DNA of 31,221 bases from Thraustochytrium sp. TN22 (taxonomy: Eukaryota > Sar > Bigyra > Thraustochytrida > Thraustochytriidae). Positions 8,639 through 21,702 of this stretch are shown here, piece after piece (position 1 is the first letter of the stretch; each line of letters opens with the position of its first letter). The stretch is from contig JABLUY010000337.1 of assembly GCA_013306675.1 (NCBI GenBank), positions 1 to 31,221 on the forward strand. Reading direction: 5' to 3'. Position numbers and translations under genes: made by a program. Under the pieces are notes generated by a model, which saw nothing but the letters and a program-made list of their open reading frames with translations, ran no database searches and was not told where the DNA came from.

Positions 8639-11600
8639 ATGGGCGCAGCGTGCTCTTCAGGGACGCGCGTGCAAGATGCGCCGGGCAAGGATGATGCGCC
8701 GGCGACGCCTCTGACGGCGGCGCCAGCGACGTCGGTGACGCCTGCACCAGCCCCACTAGCCAAAGCACCGGCAGCGTCGCCCCCACCAACGCCCTTGCCA
8801 GCACCTCCTCCGGCTTCAACAGAGTCCTCGGCTGCGAACCCTCCAGCCGCATCCGCTGCTGCAGGAGAAGCTCCGGACGATGCGGCAGCTGGGATCCTGC
8901 AGCGAGCGGCAGAGCGGCTGGAGAAGCTCAGAAAGACGGTGGTGGCGGAACCCGACCCGGAGACCTTCGTGCGGCGCAACCGCAAGCGGCTGGCAGAGAC
9001 GCGCACGGTGCGCGTCTTCATCTCGAGCACTTTCCGAGACTTCGCACTGGAGCGCGACTACCTGATGCGGCACGCGCTGCCGGAGCTGCGGCGATTCGGC
9101 GAGTCGCGCGGCGTGACGGTGGTCTTTGTGGACTTGCGCTGGGGCGTGACGCGCGAGGAGAGCGGCAGCGGCCAGGTGGTGCGGCTGTGTCTGCAGGAAA
9201 TTGACGCGTGCCGGCCGTTCTTCGTCGGCATGCTGGGCGACCGCTACGGCTGGCACCTGGCGCAGACGCTTACGGCGAACGACGAGCCGCTCGTGGAGAC
9301 CATGGACATCGGCCAGGCGCTGTACCCGTGGGTGGGCGAGTACCGCGACCGGTCCGTGACGGAGCTCGAGATTCTGCACGGCGCGCTGCTGCACCCGGAG
9401 CTGGCGGGTCAGGTGACCTTCTACTTCCGACAGCAAGAGGCCTTCTTGCGCAACACCCGCGCGGAGATGGCGCCCGACGTCCTGGAGGCGTACAGCAACA
9501 CGAACGAGGGCGACTACGCGCTGCGGTGCCAGACGCGGCTCAAGGAGGAGATCCGCGCGGCCTTTCCCGACCGGTGCTTCGACTACGAGCGCATCAGCGC
9601 GCTGTCTGAGCAGCTCGTGCAGGACGTCTCGCGCGCCATCGACGCGGAGTTCCCCATGGACGCGGGCCAGTTCGGGCCGTGGGACTTTATCGACCTGCAC
9701 CACGAAGCCTTCGCGGCGTCCAAACGCCTCGGCTATGTTGCCCTGGACGAGGCCTTTGACGCGCTGGACGCTGCGCTCGCCGGCATGGGCCCCGCGGCCG
9801 GTGGCCGCGGCGCCGCCGAGCTGGCCGTCGTAGGCCCCTCCGGCAAGGGCAAGTCGGCGCTCCTGGCGAACTGGGCCAACAAGCAGCAGCGCGCGGCCAG
9901 CGCCGCCGTCTTTGTGCACTTTGTGGGCTGCACCACGGAGAGCACGGACCACCACCACATCATGCGACGCATCGTCGCGTTCTTCGGGCGCAGGTTCAAC
10001 CTGGATGTGCGCGACTTCTGCCAGGACCTCAAGGCGCGCAGCGCCAGCGCCAAGCCGGCGGCCGCCGGTGCGTCGGGGCAGCCCGCGGCGGGCCCAGAGG
10101 CCCAGCAGGCCTACCAGCCTGGATTTCGCGACGAGGACGCGCTGCATCTCAACGAGCAGCAGGTCACGGAGATCCTGCCGGACTTCCTCGTGTCGGCCGT
10201 GGCCGAGGCACAAAAGGCTGGCGTGCGCGCCGCGCTCGTGCTGGACGGCCTGGACCAGCTCGAGGACAAGGGCCACTCGCGGACGCTCTTCTGGCTCCCG
10301 TCCGTGCACGGCCTCGCCACGCTGGTGGGCTTCAAGTCGGAGGAGGCCGACGTGACGCGGTCCCAGACTGCCAAGCTCCGCTCGCCCAAGTCCAGAGGCA
10401 CGCTCGAGGTGGCCGCCCGCGCCGCCCTCACGAGCGGCGCCGCCGGGCCGGACGCGGGCGGCAAGAATGCCGCGGACGACCCGGACGGCGCGCGCCGCCT
10501 CTCGCAGTCCGGCGCCGCCGAGGTGGTGCGCGAGCACTGGGCCTTGCGCAACGGGCACTTCTTTGTGCTGGGCGACCTGGAGCGCGAGCAGCGCCGGCAG
10601 GTCATCACGGGCTACCTGGCGGAGCACGCCAAGAAGTTGGACGGCGACCAGACTTCGCTCGTGCTGGAGGCCGAGTCGGCGCAGAACCCGCTGTTTCTCC
10701 GCACGCTGCTGGACGAGGCGCGCCTTTTCGGCGACTTCAACAGCCTCACGGATCACCTTCGCATGCTACTGGCTGCGCCGAGCAACCCGGCGCTCTACGG
10801 CCTCGTGCTGGACCGCATGGCGGACGAGTGCGGCGCCGACCTCATGCGCTGGGCCGTCGGCCTTGTGCTGTGTGCGCGCGACGGCGTCACGGACCAGGAG
10901 CTGCGCGAGGCGCTCATGATCGACTTCGCGACGGCGCTGCGCGAGGGCACCGAGGCGCGCTACGTGGAGGCTGCGGACGACCTCAATGATCTCCAGCCTC
11001 TGGCTGTCGACTTTCGCATCCAAGACGACGCCACGGTGCGCAGCTTCGTGCAGCTACTCTTTGGCCTCCGCGAGCAGCTCTGCTCCACCTCGGGCCTGCT
11101 GCGCTTCTTCCACGACGCCGCCAAGGAGGCGGTGCGCACGGCGCTGGGCGGCTACAACGGCGGTGTGCGCCGCGCGCTGCACTGGCGGCTCGCCGAGTGC
11201 TTCGCGAGAGACGATGTGGCCAAGGTCGACTTCGCGCGACAGCTGCGCGAGCTGCCCTATCATCTCCTGCGCGCCGGCCGCCATGACGAACTCGCCGCCT
11301 ACACGTCGCGACCCGAGGTGCTGCGCGAGATGCTGCAGGACGAGGCCTGCAAGTACGAGCTCGTCCTCTACTGGCGCGAGATCGGCGCTGCCTGGAGCCG
11401 CCGCACAGGCACCAAGGCGCCGGCCTCGGTGGGCGCCTACCTCAAGGACGTGGCGCTGCAGAGCAAGAAGGACTTGCCGCCAGACCTGGGCAAGACCCGG
11501 ACCACCATGACCACGGCCGATTTTGAAGCGATGCGCCCGCTGCTGGAGCAGGCCTCCGAGATCCTCGACCACGTGTCCTCGCTGCTGGCGCTCCTGGACA

Positions 11601-13051
11601 TGTACGACGAGGCCGTCGACCTGCGCCACATGGAGATCGCCTACAATACGCTGCTCTACGACGGCGAGCACGACAAGATTGCCGTCTCCTGCAGCGAGCT
11701 CGCCGACGTCTACGAGCGCGTCTACAGCGACTACAAGCGCTCCATGGAGCTCAAGGAGCGCGCGCTCGCCATTGACCGCAAGCTCTACGGCGAGAAGAAT
11801 CGTCAAATCGCCATCGCCTACGACAACCTCGGCTTCCTCCACCTCAAGCTTGGCAGCTACGCGCGCGCCAAGGAGGTTTACGAGCACTCGCTCGCCATCA
11901 AAAAGGAGGTCTGCGGCGAGTTCCACCGCGACATTGCGCAGACCGCCAACGCGCTCGGCCTTTTGCACGAGGAGCTCGGCGACCTCGACGCCGCCCAGCG
12001 CTGGTACCAGCTCAGCCTCGACGTGCGCAAGCGCGCCTTTGGCCCGCGCCACCCCTCCGTGGCACGCAGCAACATTGACATGGGCATGCTGCGCCTCAAG
12101 CAGGGCGACACCTCCGAGGCGCTCGAGCTCGTCGCGCAGGGCCACGACGCCCTCGAAGAGGCCCTCGGCCCGCTGCACAGCGACGTCGCCGCCGCGGCCA
12201 ACAACCTCGGCCTCGTCTACGCGCAGCGCGGCGAGCACCAGCTCGCGCACGACTACCACTGGCGCGCGCACCGCACGCAGCTCAGCCGCCTCGGCCCGGA
12301 CAATCCGGCCCTCGCCGCCACCTGCGCCAACCTCGGCTCCGTCTGCCAGGAGCTCACGCGCCAGGCCTTTCGGAACAACGACGAGACTGCCGAGGACAAC
12401 TTCTTCCAGCAGGCCGTCAAGCACTACACCAGCGCCGTCGCCATTTATGAGATCAAGCTGCGCGCCGCGCACCCAGACCTTGGCATCGCGCTCCACAACC
12501 TCGGCACGCTCTACTACGACGCTGCTGCGCGCGAGATCTCCTGCCACGAGGATGCCGAGGACCAGGCCTCTGTGCGCGAAACCATCCAGGAGCACCTCCA
12601 GGAGGCCTGCGACGCGCTTAAACGTGCGCTCGAGGTGCGCGTGGAGGTCTTTGGTGACGACTCGCCGCCCGCCAACGCCTCGCGCGACGCGCTGCGCCTT
12701 TGCACCTCCCAGCTTGAGCACCTGCGCGGCGGCGGCGAGGTCGCCGCCCTCCAGGCTGGCGCCGACGGCGACGGCGCCGACGATGGGCTCGTTGACCGCT
12801 GCGTCGCCTCGTTGGACGAGCTGCGCCCGATCACCGACGCCGCGCTCGAGGCCAAGCTCGGTTCCGCCGACGACGTCAGTCTCGCAAATCCCTCGCCCGA
12901 GCTCGACGCCGTCCTAGAGCGCATCGCGCAGGACCTCAACATTGCCAACTTTGAGCCGGGCGACCTCAACGCCGCCGAGGCGCCTGACACGCTCGATGCC
13001 ACTCTCCTCGCCACGGTCGTGCAGACCATCCTCCGCCAAGCCTACAGCTGA
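8639..13051 (+). CDS. Nephrocystin-3-like DUF4062-NACHT-TPR protein
   Basis: This 1470-residue single-exon protein starts MGAACSSG, an N-myristoylation signal (Gly2, Ser6) with a neighbouring Cys for palmitoylation. A Pro/Ala linker and short helical segment (about 85-120) follow. Residues 124-270 form the DUF4062-type domain seen in NPHP3, NWD1 and TEP1 (VRVFISSTFRDF, VDLRWGVTREES, LGDRYGW). A STAND/NACHT P-loop ATPase follows, with Walker A GPSGKGKS at 399-406 and Walker B LVLDGLDQLED around 533-543. Residues about 960-1355 are kinesin-light-chain-type TPRs with repeated GxxHPxxA and NNLGxxY/F signatures. TPRs rather than WD40s favour nephrocystin-3 over NWD1/TEP1. Human NPHP3 is itself myristoylated and targets the ciliary inversin compartment, so a ciliary membrane scaffold is the best inference. 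A STAND sensor role is the alternative. Confidence 0.87.
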   Translation: MGAACSSGTRVQDAPGKDDAPATPLTAAPATSVTPAPAPLAKAPAASPPPTPLPAPPPASTESSAANPPAASAAAGEAPDDAAAGILQRAAERLEKLRKTVVAEPDPETFVRRNRKRLAETRTVRVFISSTFRDFALERDYLMRHALPELRRFGESRGVTVVFVDLRWGVTREESGSGQVVRLCLQEIDACRPFFVGMLGDRYGWHLAQTLTANDEPLVETMDIGQALYPWVGEYRDRSVTELEILHGALLHPELAGQVTFYFRQQEAFLRNTRAEMAPDVLEAYSNTNEGDYALRCQTRLKEEIRAAFPDRCFDYERISALSEQLVQDVSRAIDAEFPMDAGQFGPWDFIDLHHEAFAASKRLGYVALDEAFDALDAALAGMGPAAGGRGAAELAVVGPSGKGKSALLANWANKQQRAASAAVFVHFVGCTTESTDHHHIMRRIVAFFGRRFNLDVRDFCQDLKARSASAKPAAAGASGQPAAGPEAQQAYQPGFRDEDALHLNEQQVTEILPDFLVSAVAEAQKAGVRAALVLDGLDQLEDKGHSRTLFWLPSVHGLATLVGFKSEEADVTRSQTAKLRSPKSRGTLEVAARAALTSGAAGPDAGGKNAADDPDGARRLSQSGAAEVVREHWALRNGHFFVLGDLEREQRRQVITGYLAEHAKKLDGDQTSLVLEAESAQNPLFLRTLLDEARLFGDFNSLTDHLRMLLAAPSNPALYGLVLDRMADECGADLMRWAVGLVLCARDGVTDQELREALMIDFATALREGTEARYVEAADDLNDLQPLAVDFRIQDDATVRSFVQLLFGLREQLCSTSGLLRFFHDAAKEAVRTALGGYNGGVRRALHWRLAECFARDDVAKVDFARQLRELPYHLLRAGRHDELAAYTSRPEVLREMLQDEACKYELVLYWREIGAAWSRRTGTKAPASVGAYLKDVALQSKKDLPPDLGKTRTTMTTADFEAMRPLLEQASEILDHVSSLLALLDMYDEAVDLRHMEIAYNTLLYDGEHDKIAVSCSELADVYERVYSDYKRSMELKERALAIDRKLYGEKNRQIAIAYDNLGFLHLKLGSYARAKEVYEHSLAIKKEVCGEFHRDIAQTANALGLLHEELGDLDAAQRWYQLSLDVRKRAFGPRHPSVARSNIDMGMLRLKQGDTSEALELVAQGHDALEEALGPLHSDVAAAANNLGLVYAQRGEHQLAHDYHWRAHRTQLSRLGPDNPALAATCANLGSVCQELTRQAFRNNDETAEDNFFQQAVKHYTSAVAIYEIKLRAAHPDLGIALHNLGTLYYDAAAREISCHEDAEDQASVRETIQEHLQEACDALKRALEVRVEVFGDDSPPANASRDALRLCTSQLEHLRGGGEVAALQAGADGDGADDGLVDRCVASLDELRPITDAALEAKLGSADDVSLANPSPELDAVLERIAQDLNIANFEPGDLNAAEAPDTLDATLLATVVQTILRQAYS

Positions 13052-13999: not shown

Positions 14000-15286
14000 A
14001 TGGGGCGAGGCATGGCAGACGGCACCCTGGTCCAGGCGGCACACGACGCCGAGCTCGACGCGGAGCGCAAGCGCAGCGCAGTCAAGGCGGAGGCGGCCAA
14101 GACGCGCGAGCCCGCGACGCCCGCACCGCCCGTGAACGGCGAAGCGCGCGGGAAGAGCCTGGGCGATGTGGCCGCCGGCAAGGGGCTCTCGGTGAGAGGC
14201 TTTCTCGCGCTCGCGGCCTGCGTGCTGGTGCTGCTGGTGCTGGCCAAGACGAACCAGTCCAAGCTGGGCGCCAAAATGGCGGCCGTGCTGCTGGGACCGG
14301 CCGGCCTCAGCGGCGCCTTCGCACTGCTGCTGTGGACCGCGCCGCTCAAGGAGATCGCCTACCTGGTGGACCGCCTGGGCGCGGTGCGCGGCGAGCTGCG
14401 CCAGCTGCTGCCGCACGCCGCGGACCTGCTGCCCCTGCTGCCGGATATGCTGCCTTACACGCAGGTCGTGGTGGACAACATTGAGCGCGTGGGCGCCGCC
14501 ATGCCCGTCATGATGCAGCCCGGCTGCAAGGAGTACATCTTGCCGCTCATGCCCAAGCTCATGCCCGACCTCGAGATGCTGCTGGACGCCTTCCCCATCC
14601 TGGCGCCCGTTATGCCGCGCGTCGCGCCCGAGCTGCACCGCATCCTGCCCTACATGCGCACACTCCTGCCTTATTCGGAGGCACTCGTGCCCATCGTCCA
14701 GGTTGACGGCTGGGAGGCCGTCAACGAGCACATGGACGTGCTGGCGCCCTGCATCGACAAAGTGGCGCCCTACTCCAAGGACCTGGCGCCCTACATCCCG
14801 CAGCTTGCGCCCTACATGCCCATCCTTACCAAGCACATCGACAACCTCACCGCCAACATGGAGGAGACCATCCCGGTCCTCGATAAGCTCATGCCGCTTC
14901 TCCCGCTGCTCCCAGCCGCCGACCAGGCCGGCATCCTCGACCGACCCATCGCCTTCAAGGCGCTGCCGCAAGTGCTCAAGCGCTCCTTTTTCAGCAATGA
15001 CATGACCAACCGCGCCGCCCTCACTGGCGCCTCCATCCATGGCAAGATGCTCAACAACATTCAGCAGCTGCAGCGGGCCCTCGCCGAGCGCTACAAGCTT
15101 TATCTGCTCAGCCCCGCCATGCAGGCCAAGCCCAAGTTTCTTCTCAACGGAGCCGGCGACGGGCCCGATTCGGACCAGTACGACGCGCACGACGACCCCG
15201 AGTCAGACGCCGAGTCAGACGCCGACGACGATGACGACGAATTCGCCGAGAATGAACCCGACGCCGAGGACGATGCGCGCCTCTGA
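14000..15286 (+). CDS. Two-helix membrane protein with proline-phased heptad repeats, unknown function
   Basis: I do not recognise this 428-residue protein. After a charged ~60-residue N-terminus there are two hydrophobic segments (about 67-82 and 92-113), probably a membrane hairpin. Residues ~137-305 form a regular repeat in which proline recurs every seven residues, often followed by Tyr and preceded by Leu-Leu, Leu-Ala or Leu-Met (LLP, LAPY, LMP). Examples are prolines 203, 210, 217, 224, 231 and 250, 257, 264, 271. Extra prolines fall three residues later in several units, giving a 3+4 rhythm. A non-repeated region (about 310-385) is followed by an acidic Asp/Glu tail (about 393-426). 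It resembles an amphipathic lipid-facing or lipid-transfer array more than a coiled coil, but this is inference. The ATG sits in a good context (GCAAGCATGG). The gene converges with the helicase gene, 135 bases apart. Confidence 0.75.
   Translation: MGRGMADGTLVQAAHDAELDAERKRSAVKAEAAKTREPATPAPPVNGEARGKSLGDVAAGKGLSVRGFLALAACVLVLLVLAKTNQSKLGAKMAAVLLGPAGLSGAFALLLWTAPLKEIAYLVDRLGAVRGELRQLLPHAADLLPLLPDMLPYTQVVVDNIERVGAAMPVMMQPGCKEYILPLMPKLMPDLEMLLDAFPILAPVMPRVAPELHRILPYMRTLLPYSEALVPIVQVDGWEAVNEHMDVLAPCIDKVAPYSKDLAPYIPQLAPYMPILTKHIDNLTANMEETIPVLDKLMPLLPLLPAADQAGILDRPIAFKALPQVLKRSFFSNDMTNRAALTGASIHGKMLNNIQQLQRALAERYKLYLLSPAMQAKPKFLLNGAGDGPDSDQYDAHDDPESDAESDADDDDDEFAENEPDAEDDARL

Positions 15287-15359: not shown

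Positions 15360-15393
<34 letters not shown>
15360..15393. repeat. CT dinucleotide repeat between convergent genes
   Basis: About 17 CT units occupy a quarter of the 135-base gap between the proline-heptad gene (plus) and the helicase gene (minus). It would be transcribed into one or both 3' UTRs. Confidence 0.85.
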
Positions 15394-15421: not shown

Positions 15422-18400
15422 TCAATGGACGTCACTACTATCGCGTGCCAGGCGGCGTACCAGTTCTGCTTGCATCGCTTCCATGAGCTGGAGCCTTTGG
15501 AGCTTCTTGGAATCCTTTTCTGTCGTGAAGATGATCAACTCGGAACCTTGTTTCCGGGCGCGCCCGCGGCACTGCACAAGCTTGTGCATGGCCGTCGGCG
15601 GGGTCAGCGTCACGACGCGGTCGCACTCGCTGATGTCAAAGCCCTCCTGAACGGCGCTCGTCGCCACGAGCACGTTGATCTCACCGAGTCGAAAGCTGGC
15701 CACGGTCTGAAGCTGGTGCTTCCAGGTCTGATCCTGGGTTCCGACGACGTAGTCGGTACGGACCCCGGCGTCGCTCAACACGAGCCTCACGTACTCGGAG
15801 ACGCGTTGCGCGTCGCACCGCCGCTCTACGAAGACAAGAGTGCGCCCGAGCCGGCCCTGCTCGGCTGCGGCACGCAAGAGATCCGCGAGCTGCAGGACGG
15901 GGCCAGTTGCAATCGCTCGTCCAGGTTCGGCGGACGACTCGCCAATGTAGATCACCCCGCTGCCTGTGCTGTTGTTCTTGTTGAGATCGGCAACGTAGGC
16001 GAGCTCAGACTCGAGCAGGGCTGGCCCGATCTGGAAGGTTTCGAACGCGCTGCGACACTCGTCCTCCTTCTCGTCGACATTGACCGGGTCGGTGAGCTTG
16101 ATCTCGGTGCGAATGTCCTGCACTGGGGCCTCAGGGTCGTGCAGCAGAAACGCCTCACCTCTGCCGAGTCCGATGGCATCCAGGAGCTGGCGAGCGGCCT
16201 CTTGCATCTTCAGTTGATCGCACTGCTTGGCCTCGACGCAGGCCGTGAGCCCGAGGCAAGGCGTCGCCTGCGCGGGATCAGCCGAGAAGGCGCTGGCAAT
16301 CTTCATGAAGTCCGAGTTGCCTTTGGCATGCTGGCACTCGTCCAAAACGAGGAGGTCAATGCTGCGCCGCACGTCGACGCTATGCTCGAGGAAGTTGAGA
16401 AGCATGCCGCCGGTGATGCAAACCACATTGAAGTGACGGAGCTCGTCCCATGACTCGGGACTCATGCCGCCGCAGGCGCGTGCAACACGAAACCCGGTTA
16501 CCTCCTCAATCACCCGCGCCTGCTGGAACATGAGGACCACCGTGGGTACGACGAAGACGGCGAGTTCCGGGCAGAGGTACCTAAGGACAACAGCGGCGAT
16601 GGCTGTTTTGCCCGCGCCGGTGGGCGCGTGCACCACGGCGTTCTTGCCCATTGAGAAGGCACCCAACACCTGCTGCACCAACCTTGTTTGGAATCCGCGC
16701 AAAAAGATTGGCCTCAGCATGACGACCTTCGAGGTCGCTTGTGCAAACTCGACCGAGAGAGCGTGGCCCTCGTAGGCCCTTCTCAGCCAAGGATTCGGCT
16801 CCTTCTTCGCAGCCTCACGCAGCTTTTCGGGCCTCAGCACACGCGTCCAGGCCGCCGCTGTTGGCAGCGGCAGGACGATGGCCGGTGGGCAGTCGCTGTC
16901 CGTCGAGTCGCGAAGCGGCTCGTACTTTTTCCGCACCCGGACGACAGCAGACGTGTACGCCTCAGAGAGGTTCACAAGCCGAGCCACGCCGAGCGCTGAG
17001 ATCGCCTTGTACAGAGCCCGGAAGAAGATGGTGGCGCAGTCTGGCATGAGAAGGCCCGGGACACCAATCGCGGCGTAAAGGCGGTCACCGTGCTGCGCCG
17101 CGAGCCCCTTGCACAGCTCGATGGTGTCGCATGCGCTGAAGCACACAAAAGCCTTTCCATTGGTAGGATCTCGCAGCGAAAGCCATTCGGCAACGCGATC
17201 GAACATGTTCTGATTCGACAGCTGCTCCCCGGACTTGAGCGTCTTGAAGGTGGCGCCACTCTCGGCTGCGCTGTCCGAGCGAGACGCGATAATGTGCAGG
17301 ACGTCCGCTTGGGAATTCAACGCAGCTTGCAGCTCCGTGCAGCTGTGCACGAGCTCCTGCGTGACATCGAAAGAGGTGAGCGCGTCAACTTCGTCCTCCC
17401 AGCCACCTGGCTCTCCGTGGGATCCGACGAGCACCACGGCGAGCACGCGCATAGGGCTGCCCGCGACGTCATCGTCATCGGCACTACGCTGTGCATCGAC
17501 GGCGCTGAGCGCGCCCCGATGCTTTCGGCGCTTTGACTTGCCCTGCGAGTCCACATTGACCCAGTCGGGGTCATCTCGGGTCACCTCCGCGTCGAGCGCC
17601 GAGGGCGCTGCTTGCTCGCTCGCATGCTCGTTGTGCAGCAAGCGGTCATCCAGCACCTCCTCTTTTTCAGCTTCCCCGTTGTCCCCGTCGTCGTCGTCGG
17701 ACTCTTCCTTTTTTTCGTCGCGCTCCGCATCTGTCGTCGGTGCGTCCGGTCCTCGCACGACCGGCAGGACGCTTAGGTGAAGGAGAGAGTCCCTCTCGAT
17801 GTTTTCCAGATCATGACGAAGGTCCTCGAGGATGCTTTGAAGGGCATCGTCCTCAGGAAAATACTCCCACACAACGACCCGAGGAGCGTAGCCTGGCGGC
17901 GCGAAGGTCACCTCGATGCGCTTGGACTGAGGGACTGTGTTGACAGTCCTTCTTGCGCGGGCTCCCGCGCCGCTGGAGCCGCTGCTACCTTCGGTCGTTG
18001 AAATTCGGCCACCCGCATCAATGCGGAAGGGAAAGCCGCCAAATCGGTCGTTGTCGGATGCCTCCAAGTCGCGCCTCGTACCCCCGGGAATGTTCTTCCG
18101 GTTGTTCGGCAGCAAGAAGCAATTGCACGTGTAGATCTTCACACCGGCAACTTCTTCCTCGTCATCGCCAAGCCTTCGGTTGTGGTCCGCCACCCTGACG
18201 CCGTTTGCGTCCTTCATCAGCTTTTGCGTGTTGGTCTCGATCCACTTGAGCTTGTAGCCACCTGGAACGCGCTCTCGAACCGCCTTGCGATCGGCAGTCC
18301 GCGCTGTGAAGAGTGCTCTCCGCGCGGCGTCCCCATCGGCGTGGGAGTCGTCTGGTAGCTCAAGGTCGCGCCAGCGCGCGTCAGGGAGCGGCTCGCCTTT

Positions 18401-18514
18401 CTCGAGGCGCCCGATGGCCTCCTTGGCGGCGGCCAGGGCGGAGCTCAGCGTCAGGGCCGCATCGTCGCCGGAGGCCGCGGCTCCGGCGCTCGGCGGCGCG
18501 GGCGGGTCTGCCAT
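15422..18514 (-). CDS. CHAT/caspase-like domain fused to RIG-I/Dicer-type DExH helicase
   Basis: This is a 1030-residue single-exon protein. The N-terminal ~340 residues are unrecognised, with an acidic segment. Residues ~350-520 look like a CHAT (clan CD peptidase) domain: MRVLAVVLV strand, VLHIIASRS (H407), VCFSACDT with C462 at the expected nucleophile position, then GVPGLLMPDCATIFFRALY matching the usual helix. The typical catalytic GHG is replaced by S-R-S (S411 for His). Residues ~605-1015 form an SF2 helicase: RGFQ, APTGAGKT (630-637), ITGGMLLNFL, DECQHA (from D725), GLTA, TLVFVERR, LVATSAVQEGFDIS (about 950-964) and QCRGRARKQGS (near 983). DECx in motif II and QxRGRAR in motif VI are features of the RIG-I/Dicer helicase group. 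RNase III, PAZ, CARD and the RIG-I C-terminal domain are absent, and the insert between the two RecA lobes is short. A nucleic-acid sensing or defence role is inference. Confidence 0.8.
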   Translation of the reverse strand: MADPPAPPSAGAAASGDDAALTLSSALAAAKEAIGRLEKGEPLPDARWRDLELPDDSHADGDAARRALFTARTADRKAVRERVPGGYKLKWIETNTQKLMKDANGVRVADHNRRLGDDEEEVAGVKIYTCNCFLLPNNRKNIPGGTRRDLEASDNDRFGGFPFRIDAGGRISTTEGSSGSSGAGARARRTVNTVPQSKRIEVTFAPPGYAPRVVVWEYFPEDDALQSILEDLRHDLENIERDSLLHLSVLPVVRGPDAPTTDAERDEKKEESDDDDGDNGEAEKEEVLDDRLLHNEHASEQAAPSALDAEVTRDDPDWVNVDSQGKSKRRKHRGALSAVDAQRSADDDDVAGSPMRVLAVVLVGSHGEPGGWEDEVDALTSFDVTQELVHSCTELQAALNSQADVLHIIASRSDSAAESGATFKTLKSGEQLSNQNMFDRVAEWLSLRDPTNGKAFVCFSACDTIELCKGLAAQHGDRLYAAIGVPGLLMPDCATIFFRALYKAISALGVARLVNLSEAYTSAVVRVRKKYEPLRDSTDSDCPPAIVLPLPTAAAWTRVLRPEKLREAAKKEPNPWLRRAYEGHALSVEFAQATSKVVMLRPIFLRGFQTRLVQQVLGAFSMGKNAVVHAPTGAGKTAIAAVVLRYLCPELAVFVVPTVVLMFQQARVIEEVTGFRVARACGGMSPESWDELRHFNVVCITGGMLLNFLEHSVDVRRSIDLLVLDECQHAKGNSDFMKIASAFSADPAQATPCLGLTACVEAKQCDQLKMQEAARQLLDAIGLGRGEAFLLHDPEAPVQDIRTEIKLTDPVNVDEKEDECRSAFETFQIGPALLESELAYVADLNKNNSTGSGVIYIGESSAEPGRAIATGPVLQLADLLRAAAEQGRLGRTLVFVERRCDAQRVSEYVRLVLSDAGVRTDYVVGTQDQTWKHQLQTVASFRLGEINVLVATSAVQEGFDISECDRVVTLTPPTAMHKLVQCRGRARKQGSELIIFTTEKDSKKLQRLQLMEAMQAELVRRLARDSSDVH

Positions 18515-18895: not shown

Positions 18896-19780
18896 TCATG
18901 GGAGGCTGGCAATGTAGGCGCGGAGAGAGATAGGATTGGGTATGGGGTCGTCCGGGTAGGCAAAGTCGTGGATGGTGGCACGGCACATGGGGCACTTTGG
19001 TACGCTTCTATTGTTGCGGGCGGTCTGGTCTATGCGGTGCATGCAGCGGCCGCACAGGTAGTGGTTACAGGGGCGAAGCACGACGACGTTGTCGGCGATG
19101 CTGTTGCTCTGGCAGACCGGGCACTCGAGCGGGTTGCGGTCCTCGACGGCTTGCTGCTCCTTGCGGAGCGCCTGGCGAAAGTCCTCAAGACAGGTCTCTT
19201 TGCAGCTGTCAATATTGGTGCGGTGAGCGACGAGCATGCGCTCCGTGACGGTGGTGAGATTGCTGATGAGACCGGTGGCCGCGAGTTGCTCGTTGAGCGC
19301 TGCAATCCGCTCGCTGACGACGGTCTTTTGGTTCTCTGCCTCTCGTTTCAGGTCCCGCTGCAGGCGCTCGAGCGCGGCGCTCGCCTCCTTCTCGGTGGCC
19401 ACGTGCATGAGCGCAGCGATCGCGGAAGTGAGGATCGCGCGCAGGGCGTCCTTGGCCCTCGCGTCCTGGTCCTCGAGGCGGAGCGCGCCGTCGATACGCG
19501 CGGTGGGCGCCTCCTGCCGCGCCCCGAGCGCCAGGCCTGCGACCGAGGCCACGAGGGTCCCGGCAATGAGCACGAGCGTGACGAGCAAGCCGACGCCGCT
19601 CCACGCCTCGCTCGCCTGCGTCTCGAGCAGCAGCGGCACGAGGAGGGCGAGGCGCCGCGGCTCCTCTCTGAACCACGCGAGCACTGCGTCCAGCGCCTTG
19701 GACCCGAGCGTGGCCACGAGCCACGCGCTGATGGGGGCCGCGCCCATGACCAGGGCCACGTTCGCCACCGCCGACAGCAT
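18896..19780 (-). CDS. Membrane RING-finger protein (probable E3 ubiquitin ligase), paralog 1
   Basis: This 294-residue protein ends in a C3HC4 RING at about residues 220-270: CPVC (from C220), then LRPCNHYLCGRC and CPMC. RING domains recruit E2 enzymes for ubiquitin transfer. Hydrophobic segments at about 2-25, 42-52 and 61-86 suggest membrane anchoring. A helical, probably coiled-coil region (about 100-200) separates them from the RING. A short conserved tail after the RING reads DFAYPDDP. It is clearly paralogous to the next gene upstream (20145-21227), sharing SGVGLL near the membrane helix, ALNEQLAATG, ERMLVAH and the whole RING plus tail. The frame stays open upstream to an ATG at 20170, but that extension overlaps the neighbour's stop codon and has no counterpart in the paralog, so I chose 19780. 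Substrate and membrane are unknown. Confidence 0.82.
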   Translation of the reverse strand: MLSAVANVALVMGAAPISAWLVATLGSKALDAVLAWFREEPRRLALLVPLLLETQASEAWSGVGLLVTLVLIAGTLVASVAGLALGARQEAPTARIDGALRLEDQDARAKDALRAILTSAIAALMHVATEKEASAALERLQRDLKREAENQKTVVSERIAALNEQLAATGLISNLTTVTERMLVAHRTNIDSCKETCLEDFRQALRKEQQAVEDRNPLECPVCQSNSIADNVVVLRPCNHYLCGRCMHRIDQTARNNRSVPKCPMCRATIHDFAYPDDPIPNPISLRAYIASLP

Positions 19781-20144
19781 CGTGCCGCGGCGACAGGCGC
19801 GCCTACGACCGGCGGCCGGACCTGCCGCGAGCCCGTCGCGCGCCCCGCCGCGCCGCGCCGCCACCCGGGCCTCTCTCTGGCCGGCCCAGGCCTCCCGGGT
19901 TTGCCTGAGGCCCTGGGCACGCACGGACGACACGAGGAGGCGGAGAACGAGGAGCGCGACGGGAGCGCGGCGGGCCAGCGCAGCCCAGCCCAGCGCAGCG
20001 CAGCGCAGCGCACGAGAAGGCCATCCGTGGCAGTGCAAAGCGAGGAGAGAGCAAACTCGTGTAAAATTCAATCGGCATGGACGGACACCTCTGGAGACCA
20101 GGCACTGCACTGCCAAGCCGAGTGAGAGGCGTCCTCCTTGCTCG
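19781..20144. other. Spacer between the two RING genes
   Basis: These 364 bases separate two same-strand paralogs and include a GCAGC/GCAGCCCA run (about 19977-20010). No gene is supported. The RING paralog 1 frame is open across it but reads as Arg/Ala/Leu-rich filler. Confidence 0.45.
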
Positions 20145-21227
20145 TTAATAACCGTCACCATCCCCCGCATCTAGTAGGCCTAGGCCTGGCGGACTCCATC
20201 CGTAAGTTAGCGAGAGGCCGTCGATGTAGTCGCGGAATGCCGCGCGGTGAAAGATTGGGTCCTCCGGGTAAGCAAAGTCGCGGATGGCGCCGCGACACAT
20301 GGGGCAGCTTCGACTGGCACGCCTTTTTTGAGCTTCGTCAGTCATGCGGTGAGTGCAGCGGCCACACAGGTAGTGCCTGCAGGGCTCGAGCACCACGAGA
20401 TTCTCGGCGATGTTGCTATTTGTACAGATTGGGCACTCAAGTGGGGTGCGGTCTTCGACAGCCTCGCGGAACTCCACAAGGCAGGTCTTCTTGCACTGCT
20501 CGAGAGCGGTGCTATGGGCGAGGACCATGCGCTCTATGACGGTTTCAAGGTTGCTGAAGATACCAGAAGCCTCGAGCTGTGCGTTGAGCGCCGCCGCGCT
20601 GTCGGCGACGATGCCCTCTTGATTCTCCGCCTCAACCTCCAGATTGTTTCGCAGACGCTCGATCGCGACTTCCGCTTCCGCCTCGGAGAGGCTTTCCGCA
20701 AGCTCGGTGATCCCGGAGCTGAGATGAGCGCGCATAGCCTCTTTAGCCCTGTTGTCCTGACTCTCGAGGCGAAGCTCGCCATCGAAAAATGCACGAGGCC
20801 CCATCTGCCGCACTCCGGCGTTCTCGGTCGGTGGCTCCTTCGTCGCTGCGGGCGACTCGGCAGGTGCGTCCCGGTGCCCAGCTGACATTGCGTCAGCTGC
20901 CTCGCTAGGCGCGTCTTGCTTTGTCCAAGGCGCGAGTAGCTTTGCCCTGGACACGACTTGCTTCGCCACAGACATGCCTTGCTCCGCCCACGACTTGCCT
21001 TGCTTCGCCCACAACTCCTCGCTCGGCACGCCTTTCAGGCCCCAGCGCACCAGTTCTGCCACCAATTCAACCAGAACGCAGCCGAGGAGCAGCACGAGCG
21101 TGCTCACGAGACCAACGCCGCTCCATCTCTTGTCCACGAGCGCTCCGCCCACCGCCACCTCAAGCAACATGGGTAAGAGGAACATGGCGTGCTCCGGCTT
21201 CGCCAGCCCGCCGACTCGAGCTGTCAT
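20145..21227 (-). CDS. Membrane RING-finger protein (probable E3 ubiquitin ligase), paralog 2
   Basis: This 360-residue protein is the tandem paralog of 18896-19780. A hydrophobic helix (about 36-60, starting WSGVGLVSTLVLLLG) aligns with the helix of paralog 1. A helical region with ENQEGIVADSAAALNAQLEA and IERMVLAHST follows, then a C3HC4 RING at about 265-315 (CPIC, LEPCRHYLCGRC, CPMC) and the same DFAYPEDP tail. It differs by a stretch at about residues 72-105 made of seven-residue units beginning AKQ or AEQ, absent from paralog 1, and by an extra C-terminal ~20 residues. The start was placed at the ATG where homology with the paralog begins. An ATG at 21437 would add 70 residues with many Arg/Ser/Ala and no acidic residues, which could be a mitochondrial presequence, but third-base GC there is weaker. 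Confidence 0.8.
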   Translation of the reverse strand: MTARVGGLAKPEHAMFLLPMLLEVAVGGALVDKRWSGVGLVSTLVLLLGCVLVELVAELVRWGLKGVPSEELWAKQGKSWAEQGMSVAKQVVSRAKLLAPWTKQDAPSEAADAMSAGHRDAPAESPAATKEPPTENAGVRQMGPRAFFDGELRLESQDNRAKEAMRAHLSSGITELAESLSEAEAEVAIERLRNNLEVEAENQEGIVADSAAALNAQLEASGIFSNLETVIERMVLAHSTALEQCKKTCLVEFREAVEDRTPLECPICTNSNIAENLVVLEPCRHYLCGRCTHRMTDEAQKRRASRSCPMCRGAIRDFAYPEDPIFHRAAFRDYIDGLSLTYGWSPPGLGLLDAGDGDGY

Positions 21228-21702
21228 AGTCTTGCCACTTCCGCTCGCTGCGCGGGGCGCCGAGACTGCCCGGGCGGCCCTGCGCAAGCCCCTCGCGCGG
21301 CCCGCTACGCCGCGCAGTACCGCGCAGCGACTGGCAGTGCGGCGCGGGGCAGAGAAGGATGAAAAGGATTTGCTCAATCGGGGAACGCGACGAGAGCCTG
21401 AGCCTGGCTGACGTGTGAGCAAGGCACTCCGAGTCATCGCTCGTAAACAGCCAATGAAAAATAACAGAGCTCATCACGATTCGAGCTCGTTCTTCACACG
21501 CTCGCTTGCTCGTCAGTTGCTGCTCGTGTCGTCAGTGGTGTTCTGCAAAATCCACTGTTGAACAAAACGACGTAGCCCAAAATGAAGAACTCGAACGGAG
21601 TCGGTCTCCAGGTCGGTCTCCAGCAGTGTTCTTTTTTATTACTTTAGTACATCATCGGTGTCGGTGCGTTGTGCTACATCATCGGTGTTGGTGCGTTGCG
21701 AC
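21228..21702. other. Intergenic region between RING paralog 2 and DsbA-like gene
   Basis: These 475 bases hold the promoter/leader of RING paralog 2 and the 3' UTR of the DsbA-like gene. The right end contains two small tandem repeats (listed separately). No further gene is supported. Confidence 0.45.
21601..21701. repeat. Two short tandem repeats in the 3' region of the DsbA-like gene
   Basis: A 12-base unit (TCGGTCTCCAGG) occurs twice at 21601-21623. A 27-base unit beginning TACATCATCGGTG occurs twice head to tail at 21648-21674 and 21675-21701 with few differences. The second array ends directly at the stop codon of the minus-strand DsbA-like gene. Confidence 0.75.

Follow-up and report, generated by a model that had tools for sequence, protein, structure and literature searches.

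Helicases of the RIG-I/Dicer branch and proteins carrying CHAT domains are the described systems closest to the protein considered here, which is encoded by a 1030-residue frame on contig JABLUY010000337.1 of Thraustochytrium sp. TN22. The RIG-I-like receptor (RLR) DRH-1 of C. elegans carries CARDs that had previously gone unannotated (PMC11260149), a caution against dismissing the weak N-terminal domains of such helicases. A review cites a search for RLRs in non-animal eukaryotes as having been without success (PMC6723221). In Craspase, target RNA switches on Csx29, whose CHAT2 needs H615/C658 and whose pseudo-caspase CHAT1 interfaces with Cas7-11 (PMC10028731). In fungi, gasdermins are under the control of CHAT domains carried by NLRs and by TPR proteins (PMC12881547). 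Bacterial conflict systems often carry caspase domains that are inactive, about 70% of those in the effector position of one class (PMC7159879).

The window, i.e., the whole stretch of DNA that was analysed, is the entire contig (C263; 31,221 bases) of a 37.9 Mb genome in 453 contigs. The initial annotation proposed that one of its frames joins a CHAT-like domain to a RIG-I/Dicer-type helicase. Our tentative reading, to which we give somewhat less than an even chance, is that a single gene encodes a RIG-I/Dicer-branch helicase nearest to the Dicers and, immediately N-terminal to it, a degenerate CHAT domain, this pseudo-CHAT serving as the docking part of an RNA sensor. The features of the frame, with positions in the window and residue numbers in the protein, are as follows.

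15422..18514, minus strand: whole frame (P0001), 1030 residues and a stop codon, free of stops from ATG to TGA
17498..18514, minus strand: N-terminal region, residues 1-339, with an acidic stretch at 267-287 and no credible Pfam match
16850..17467, minus strand: probable CHAT-like (caspase-fold) domain, residues ~350-555, from profile scores against shuffles and an alignment with 13 CHATs
17417..17419, minus strand: codon of H366, in SHG after the first predicted strand; possible stand-in histidine, a speculative role suggested by position only
17282..17284, minus strand: codon of S411, which the MAFFT alignment alone pairs with the catalytic histidine of CHATs (LHIIASRS versus HFSGHG)
17129..17131, minus strand: codon of C462, paired with the catalytic cysteine of CHATs (FSACDT versus LNACDS) in MAFFT, HMMER, and alignment A2
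15446..16708, minus strand: RIG-I/Dicer-type superfamily 2 helicase, residues ~603-1023 (Hel1, short insert, Hel2, and the first helix past motif VI), from Pfam and phmmer
16331..16342, minus strand: motif II, DECQ, residues 725-728
15554..15574, minus strand: motif VI, QCRGRAR, residues 981-987

The helicase half

The assignment of the C-terminal half to the RIG-I/Dicer branch, and not to the FANCM or DEAD-box helicases, is solid by sequence comparison. Above the Pfam cut-off, the protein matches DEAD (residues 614-766, 6.8e-19), Helicase_C (879-986, 2e-14), and ResIII (605-760, 2e-11), and no other model. Among solved chains searched with phmmer, the top match is Dicer homolog 1 (4.7e-31, 111.5 bits), followed by the Dicers AncD1D2 (4.2e-29), Dicer-like 4 (5.8e-23), and Dicer-2 (1.5e-20). 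Further down are LGP2 (4.2e-16), Dicer-like 3 (4.5e-16), 1wp9, which we take to be Hef (5.4e-15), RIG-I (9.5e-15), and FANCM (4.2e-14). Such a ranking tells FANCM from Dicer-like helicases, since another helicase of the same genome, encoded on contig C414, ranks FANCM first (2.8e-109), with 1wp9 at 7.8e-66. The predicted RIG-I/Dicer-type helicase is thus strongly borne out by the phmmer ranking and by the contrast with the C414 protein. Two other identities were considered and rejected: FANCM is outranked by the Dicers, unlike in the C414 protein, and a Dicer of RNA interference is incompatible with the lack of an RNase III domain by Pfam.

The stretches to which we assign the labels motif I to motif VI align with Dicer homolog 1. 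Motif VI reads QCRGRARK in the helicase versus QSRGRARK in Dicer homolog 1, and motif II reads DECQ versus DECH in the aligned Dicers. The complete set of superfamily 2 motifs expected from the first inspection is therefore present, with motif II in a variant form; likewise, both strings that were taken as a RIG-I/Dicer signature occur, DECQ being a variant of what the aligned Dicers carry. PAZ, RNase III, CARD, and the RIG-I C-terminal domain gave no Pfam match above the cut-off anywhere in the protein, although a strongly diverged CARD within residues 1-339 could escape Pfam; by this measure the protein is neither a Dicer nor a canonical RLR, as had been supposed.

Two points temper the proposed reading. 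Other animal Dicer chains (such as 21cb, 9.0e-14) fall behind LGP2 and RIG-I, and by sequence the helicase ranks closest to only part of the Dicers, namely those of plant, insect, and ancestral origin. The second concerns the insert between Hel1 and Hel2, where RIG-I/Dicer-type enzymes have the helical Hel2i that helps them to grip double-stranded RNA. In the fusion protein, 132 residues separate motif III from motif IV (query 170-302) versus 202 in Dicer-like 4 (chain 280-482), so that the insert is of reduced length, and the frame stops 43 residues past motif VI, without a C-terminal RNA domain. On both counts, a preference of the helicase for double-stranded RNA is uncertain.

The same two features would suit a housekeeping or genome-maintenance helicase that remodels RNA or DNA, in which the N-terminal alpha/beta domain would act passively, as a scaffold, and immunity would play no part. 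Its occurrence as a single copy would also fit, the 12 other genome matches to the helicase scoring at most 26 bits (only the C414 protein among them was examined). However, a repair role is already filled by the FANCM-like C414 protein, and the nearest relatives are Dicers; we hold the housekeeping explanation to be fairly unlikely.

Neither RNase III (two Pfam models; controls positive in 8/14 genomes each) nor Piwi (control positive in 1/14 genomes) was matched in the genome by six-frame, intron-blind searches of an assembly that is perhaps incomplete. Absence of both from the genome is likely rather than certain, and the usual RNA interference seems to be missing. Searches for RdRP and gasdermin were likewise negative, as were their controls, and these two negatives carry no weight.

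The CHAT-like domain

A relationship of residues 350-555 to CHAT domains is probable; in the best test the match exceeds chance, yet it is remote. Profiles were built from three CHATs of the same genome and from plasmid CHATs, 28 such stretches being at hand (3 own, 25 plasmid). The 22-sequence profile leaves out L036, L037, L044, L046, L047, and L049, in which the strict His or Cys motif pattern is not matched, and thus represents the canonical members. Its score of 12.1 bits was reached by 0/20,000 shuffles and 0/229 genome frame fragments. A 13-sequence profile gave 7.7 bits on residues 339-599, a value that no shuffle out of 2,000 (1,396 of which had a reported score) and no genome frame fragment out of 229 (177 reported) attained; in a larger run, 5/20,000 shuffles reached that value.

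In a MAFFT alignment with 13 CHATs, RVLAVVL lies opposite the first CHAT strand, ADVLHIIASRSD opposite the catalytic-histidine strand (PDIVHISAHGEE in L031), KAFVCFSACDT opposite the catalytic-cysteine strand (KLVYLNACDS), and AAIGVPGLLMPDCATIFFRALYKAI opposite the following strand and helix. The first strand, LHIIASRS, FSACDT, and IGV...ATIFFRALYKAI all face matching CHAT elements.

Several results weigh against a CHAT relationship. Pfam reported no match for residues 339-599 up to E=10, CHAT (PF12770) included. Profiles of narrower composition performed less well: bacterial CHATs alone gave 9.2 bits with 10 sequences (reached by 2/20,000 shuffles) and 6.6 bits with 19 sequences (10/20,000), and the own-genome CHATs alone gave 5.1 bits (47/20,000). 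Genuine CHATs still scored 48-177 bits (13/13) when omitted from the 13-sequence profile, whereas the query obtained 4-10 bits in these runs. When the whole protein was searched with this profile, a helicase stretch (754-807, 5.3 bits) outscored the CHAT stretch (454-532, 3.1 bits). HMMER with the CHAT profile aligns only the second half of the domain (~441-534), and the histidine register comes from MAFFT alone, as alignment A2 sets LHIIASRS elsewhere and HMMER omits the first half. Single-sequence structure models also have a low predicted local distance difference test (pLDDT) score, namely 45.0 for residues 347-581 and 39.3 for residues 590-1030.

The silence of Pfam, the better score of a helicase stretch, and the low structural confidence with mixed fold ties would all be expected if the N-terminal domain were not a CHAT at all, and instead an unrelated alpha/beta domain with a chance likeness to the CHAT cysteine strand and the next helix. 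Such a coincidence is unlikely in our estimation: no shuffle among 20,000 reaches the score of the 22-sequence profile, and the order of strands and helices is reproduced across the whole domain in one alignment.

Structure prediction, which had been suggested as a check on the fold, gave no support. A Foldseek search with the 347-581 model (pLDDT 45) placed 8tl0_I (SAVED-CHAT) first (E=0.015, probability 0.51), and the low-confidence model also ties with Argonaute, GDSL lipase, PurE, vWA, caspase-1, and legumain. VIA-align locates the 8tl0_I match at chain residues 21-145, its CHAT part being at ~301-460 (numbering schemes may differ). The same fold search with the certain helicase half found no helicase among the best 50 of 925 rows. 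As the 8tl0_I match lies outside the CHAT part and the helicase control shows no helicase, the Foldseek result is given no weight, and the model-based fold searches are uninformative for or against a CHAT fold. What stands of the CHAT-like domain first proposed is a weak, in-register profile match, which neither Pfam nor structure prediction seconds.

The catalytic-cysteine motif of CHAT domains, [SN]AC, is kept at C462, in a register shared by MAFFT, HMMER, and alignment A2. At the CHAT histidine and glycine positions, the MAFFT alignment places serine and arginine. Independently of any alignment, no HxxxH motif occurs anywhere in the 1030-residue protein, and residues 340-470 hold only the histidines H366, H390, and H407. 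An ordinary CHAT protease is unlikely because the protein lacks an HxxxH motif and has a serine at the histidine place in one alignment. Sequence evidence points instead to a probable degenerate CHAT, in which the cysteine is kept and the histidine motif lost. Of the "effector or adaptor" role first suggested for this domain, the protease effector is weakened by the missing histidine motif, and an adaptor appears likelier.

An RNA-activated, one-chain protease might nevertheless be built from C462 and a displaced histidine such as H366, switched on by the RNA-bound helicase. C462 is in register with the CHAT cysteine, and H366 is located just past the first predicted strand, a place that would be near the active site in caspase-type sheets. 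Csx29 in Craspase offers a precedent of a protease that is switched on by target RNA (PMC10028731). Against it speak the absence of HxxxH, the three histidines to which residues 340-470 are confined, and the serine and arginine that replace the CHAT histidine and glycine in the MAFFT alignment; moreover, a displaced CHAT dyad was not met in the accessible parts of the literature examined. We consider a protease of this kind quite improbable.

One frame and probably one gene

The uninterrupted frame of 1030 residues was confirmed on the minus strand, where the remaining five frames of 15422-18514 contain 7 to 32 stops each. Within it, the strings that had drawn attention are located at residues 457-464 (VCFSACDT), within 481-505 (GVPGLLMPDCATIFFRALY), at 725-728 (DECQ), and at 981-987 (QCRGRAR). 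The window has a G+C content of 67%, at which long open frames easily arise (e.g., at 23.1-25.6 kb of the window, a frame of 804 residues on one strand overlaps one of 840 on the other), and the length of the frame by itself is therefore weak proof of a gene. Better proof of coding is provided by the in-frame homology, the G+C content by codon position, and the context of the start codon. The G+C content is 0.67/0.45/0.76 at first, second, and third positions over the whole frame. The second position is the lowest in 19/19 windows along the frame, and the third is the highest in every window within 351-1000, a range that covers the joint between the CHAT-like and helicase parts (~575-605); in windows 151-250 to 301-400, the first-position G+C is equal to or above the third. 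The start ATG lies in a good context (GACCATGG). The single frame and the codon bias running across the joint favour one gene over two, so that both halves probably form one coding frame, in agreement with the initial annotation.

The only Pfam match of the N-terminal region, CDC45 at E=0.29, was judged not credible. A GA/TC dinucleotide run of 32 bases (15361-15392) lies shortly past the stop codon of the frame.

Relatives

Six short peptide patterns, with which only close relatives can be reached, yielded no confirmed relatives of the whole protein in viral_contigs or genome_contigs. A tblastn search of plasmids with the whole protein returned 10 records, with every match in the helicase part, and the best 25 of 40 PADLOC matches are likewise all within the helicase part. 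Searched alone, the CHAT-like part found only itself and C16 (E=0.07) in its own genome, the latter being read as a compositional match, and five plasmid records whose E values are 4 or higher. CHAT seeds had no confirmed relatives in genome_contigs and viral_contigs. The same fusion thus did not turn up in the collections searched, and it may exist elsewhere unnoticed. That no fusion of CHAT with a RIG-I-type helicase is known to have been described, as the initial annotation has it, agrees with the titles and abstract openings searched, which came mostly from outside the subscription literature. What is new would be the N-terminal CHAT-like partner, while the helicase branch is known.

Neighbouring genes and other CHAT proteins

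The neighbours in the window have a eukaryotic character (among them a protein kinase, a BCCIP homologue, a TPR protein, and RING proteins), and contamination was rejected, with 67% G+C in the window versus 64-72% for loci on other contigs. Between the frame and the end of the convergent frame 14000-15286 lie 135 bases, and the nearest RING frame of the same strand is located 381 bases upstream. The genes that stand out are as follows.

18896..20170 and 20145..21437, minus strand: tandem RING-finger frames, directly upstream of the fusion and on the same strand
8639..13051, plus strand: 1470 residues with DUF4062, an AAA_16/NACHT-like ATPase stretch, TPR repeats, and a nephrocystin-3-like match under the model cut-off

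The RING frames share 53% identity over 208 residues in their C-terminal halves and are, on this account, tandem duplicates. In animals, RING ligases are regulators of RIG-I; no link is shown at this locus. The 1470-residue protein reads as a STAND-type neighbour, two frames from the helicase fusion.

CHAT matches occur at four places in the genome (contigs C316, C398, C153, and C44). The protein on C316 (L021; 2580-6578, minus strand; 1333 residues) contains an EGF-like stretch, a hydrophobic segment, CHAT, and NB-ARC just under the cut-off. Such a layout suggests a receptor at the cell surface whose cytoplasmic part is a caspase-like and STAND module, the membrane span and signal peptide being judged by eye. 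In the protein on C398 (L022; 2996-5752, plus strand; 919 residues), CHAT, AAA_16, and a C-terminal SH2 are all above the cut-off and NB-ARC is below it, an unusual tie of phosphotyrosine binding to a CHAT-STAND protein. The C153 protein contains SPRY, and its CHAT passes in the genome-wide search and is absent from the whole-protein scan listing. The C44 match was read by eye, from its size and domain place, as a separase. Since the CHATs of C316, C398, and C153 keep both catalytic motifs and Peptidase_C14 matches are found on C45 and C429, caspase-fold proteases that look active are present as possible partners.

Proposed role

If the protein is an RNA sensor with a docking pseudo-CHAT, as we tentatively favour, its helicase would bind structured or double-stranded RNA and hydrolyse ATP. 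RNA binding and ATP use might then free or cluster the pseudo-CHAT domain, much as RIG-I exposes its CARDs. Within the same cell, the domain could dock to caspase-fold proteases that are active, either CHAT-STAND proteins or metacaspases, and docking would start a defence or death response. It is in this sense that we infer RNA sensing and an immune role for the fusion protein.

A wider proposal, which we regard as possible but doubtful, is that the protein represents a eukaryotic RNA receptor that signals via a caspase-fold CHAT instead of CARDs. A Dicer-type helicase would have taken on a new task as a single-chain protein that recruits or activates CHAT proteases when triggered by RNA, in a genome without detected RNase III or Argonaute, and the result would be a counterpart of Craspase in its working principle. 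If true, it would constitute a second, independent route from RNA recognition to signalling, and it would link RNA sensing with CHAT proteases, which act in the immunity of bacteria and fungi. The organism offers a direct test of the response to viral RNA where RNase III and Argonaute go undetected.

Comparison with known systems

Dicer helicase domains (Dicer homolog 1, Dicer-like 4, AncD1D2, and Dicer-2) resemble the protein in being the best matches in both helicase halves and in the QxRGRAR form of motif VI. Unlike them, it lacks PAZ and RNase III, has DECQ for DECH, and carries the CHAT-like domain in front; relative to Dicer-like 4, the insert is 70 residues shorter. With the RLRs (RIG-I, MDA5, LGP2, and C. 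elegans DRH-1) it shares the helicase branch and an N-terminal domain of possible signalling use, whereas the CHAT-like domain sits in the place of the CARDs and the C-terminal RNA domain is missing.

The CHAT-NLR and CHAT-STAND proteins, known from fungi and represented in the same genome on C316 and C398, also fuse a sensor module to a CHAT domain. Their sensor is a STAND ATPase and not a helicase, and the own-genome copies keep both catalytic motifs. Craspase (Cas7-11 with the TPR-CHAT protein Csx29) may be likened to the fusion by analogy, in that RNA binding is coupled to a CHAT domain and that Csx29, too, contains a pseudo-CHAT (CHAT1), which has a share in its RNA-triggered protease control; it differs in consisting of two proteins, being RNA-guided, and having an active CHAT2, whereas the Thraustochytrium protein combines a helicase and a CHAT-like domain without the histidine motif in one chain.

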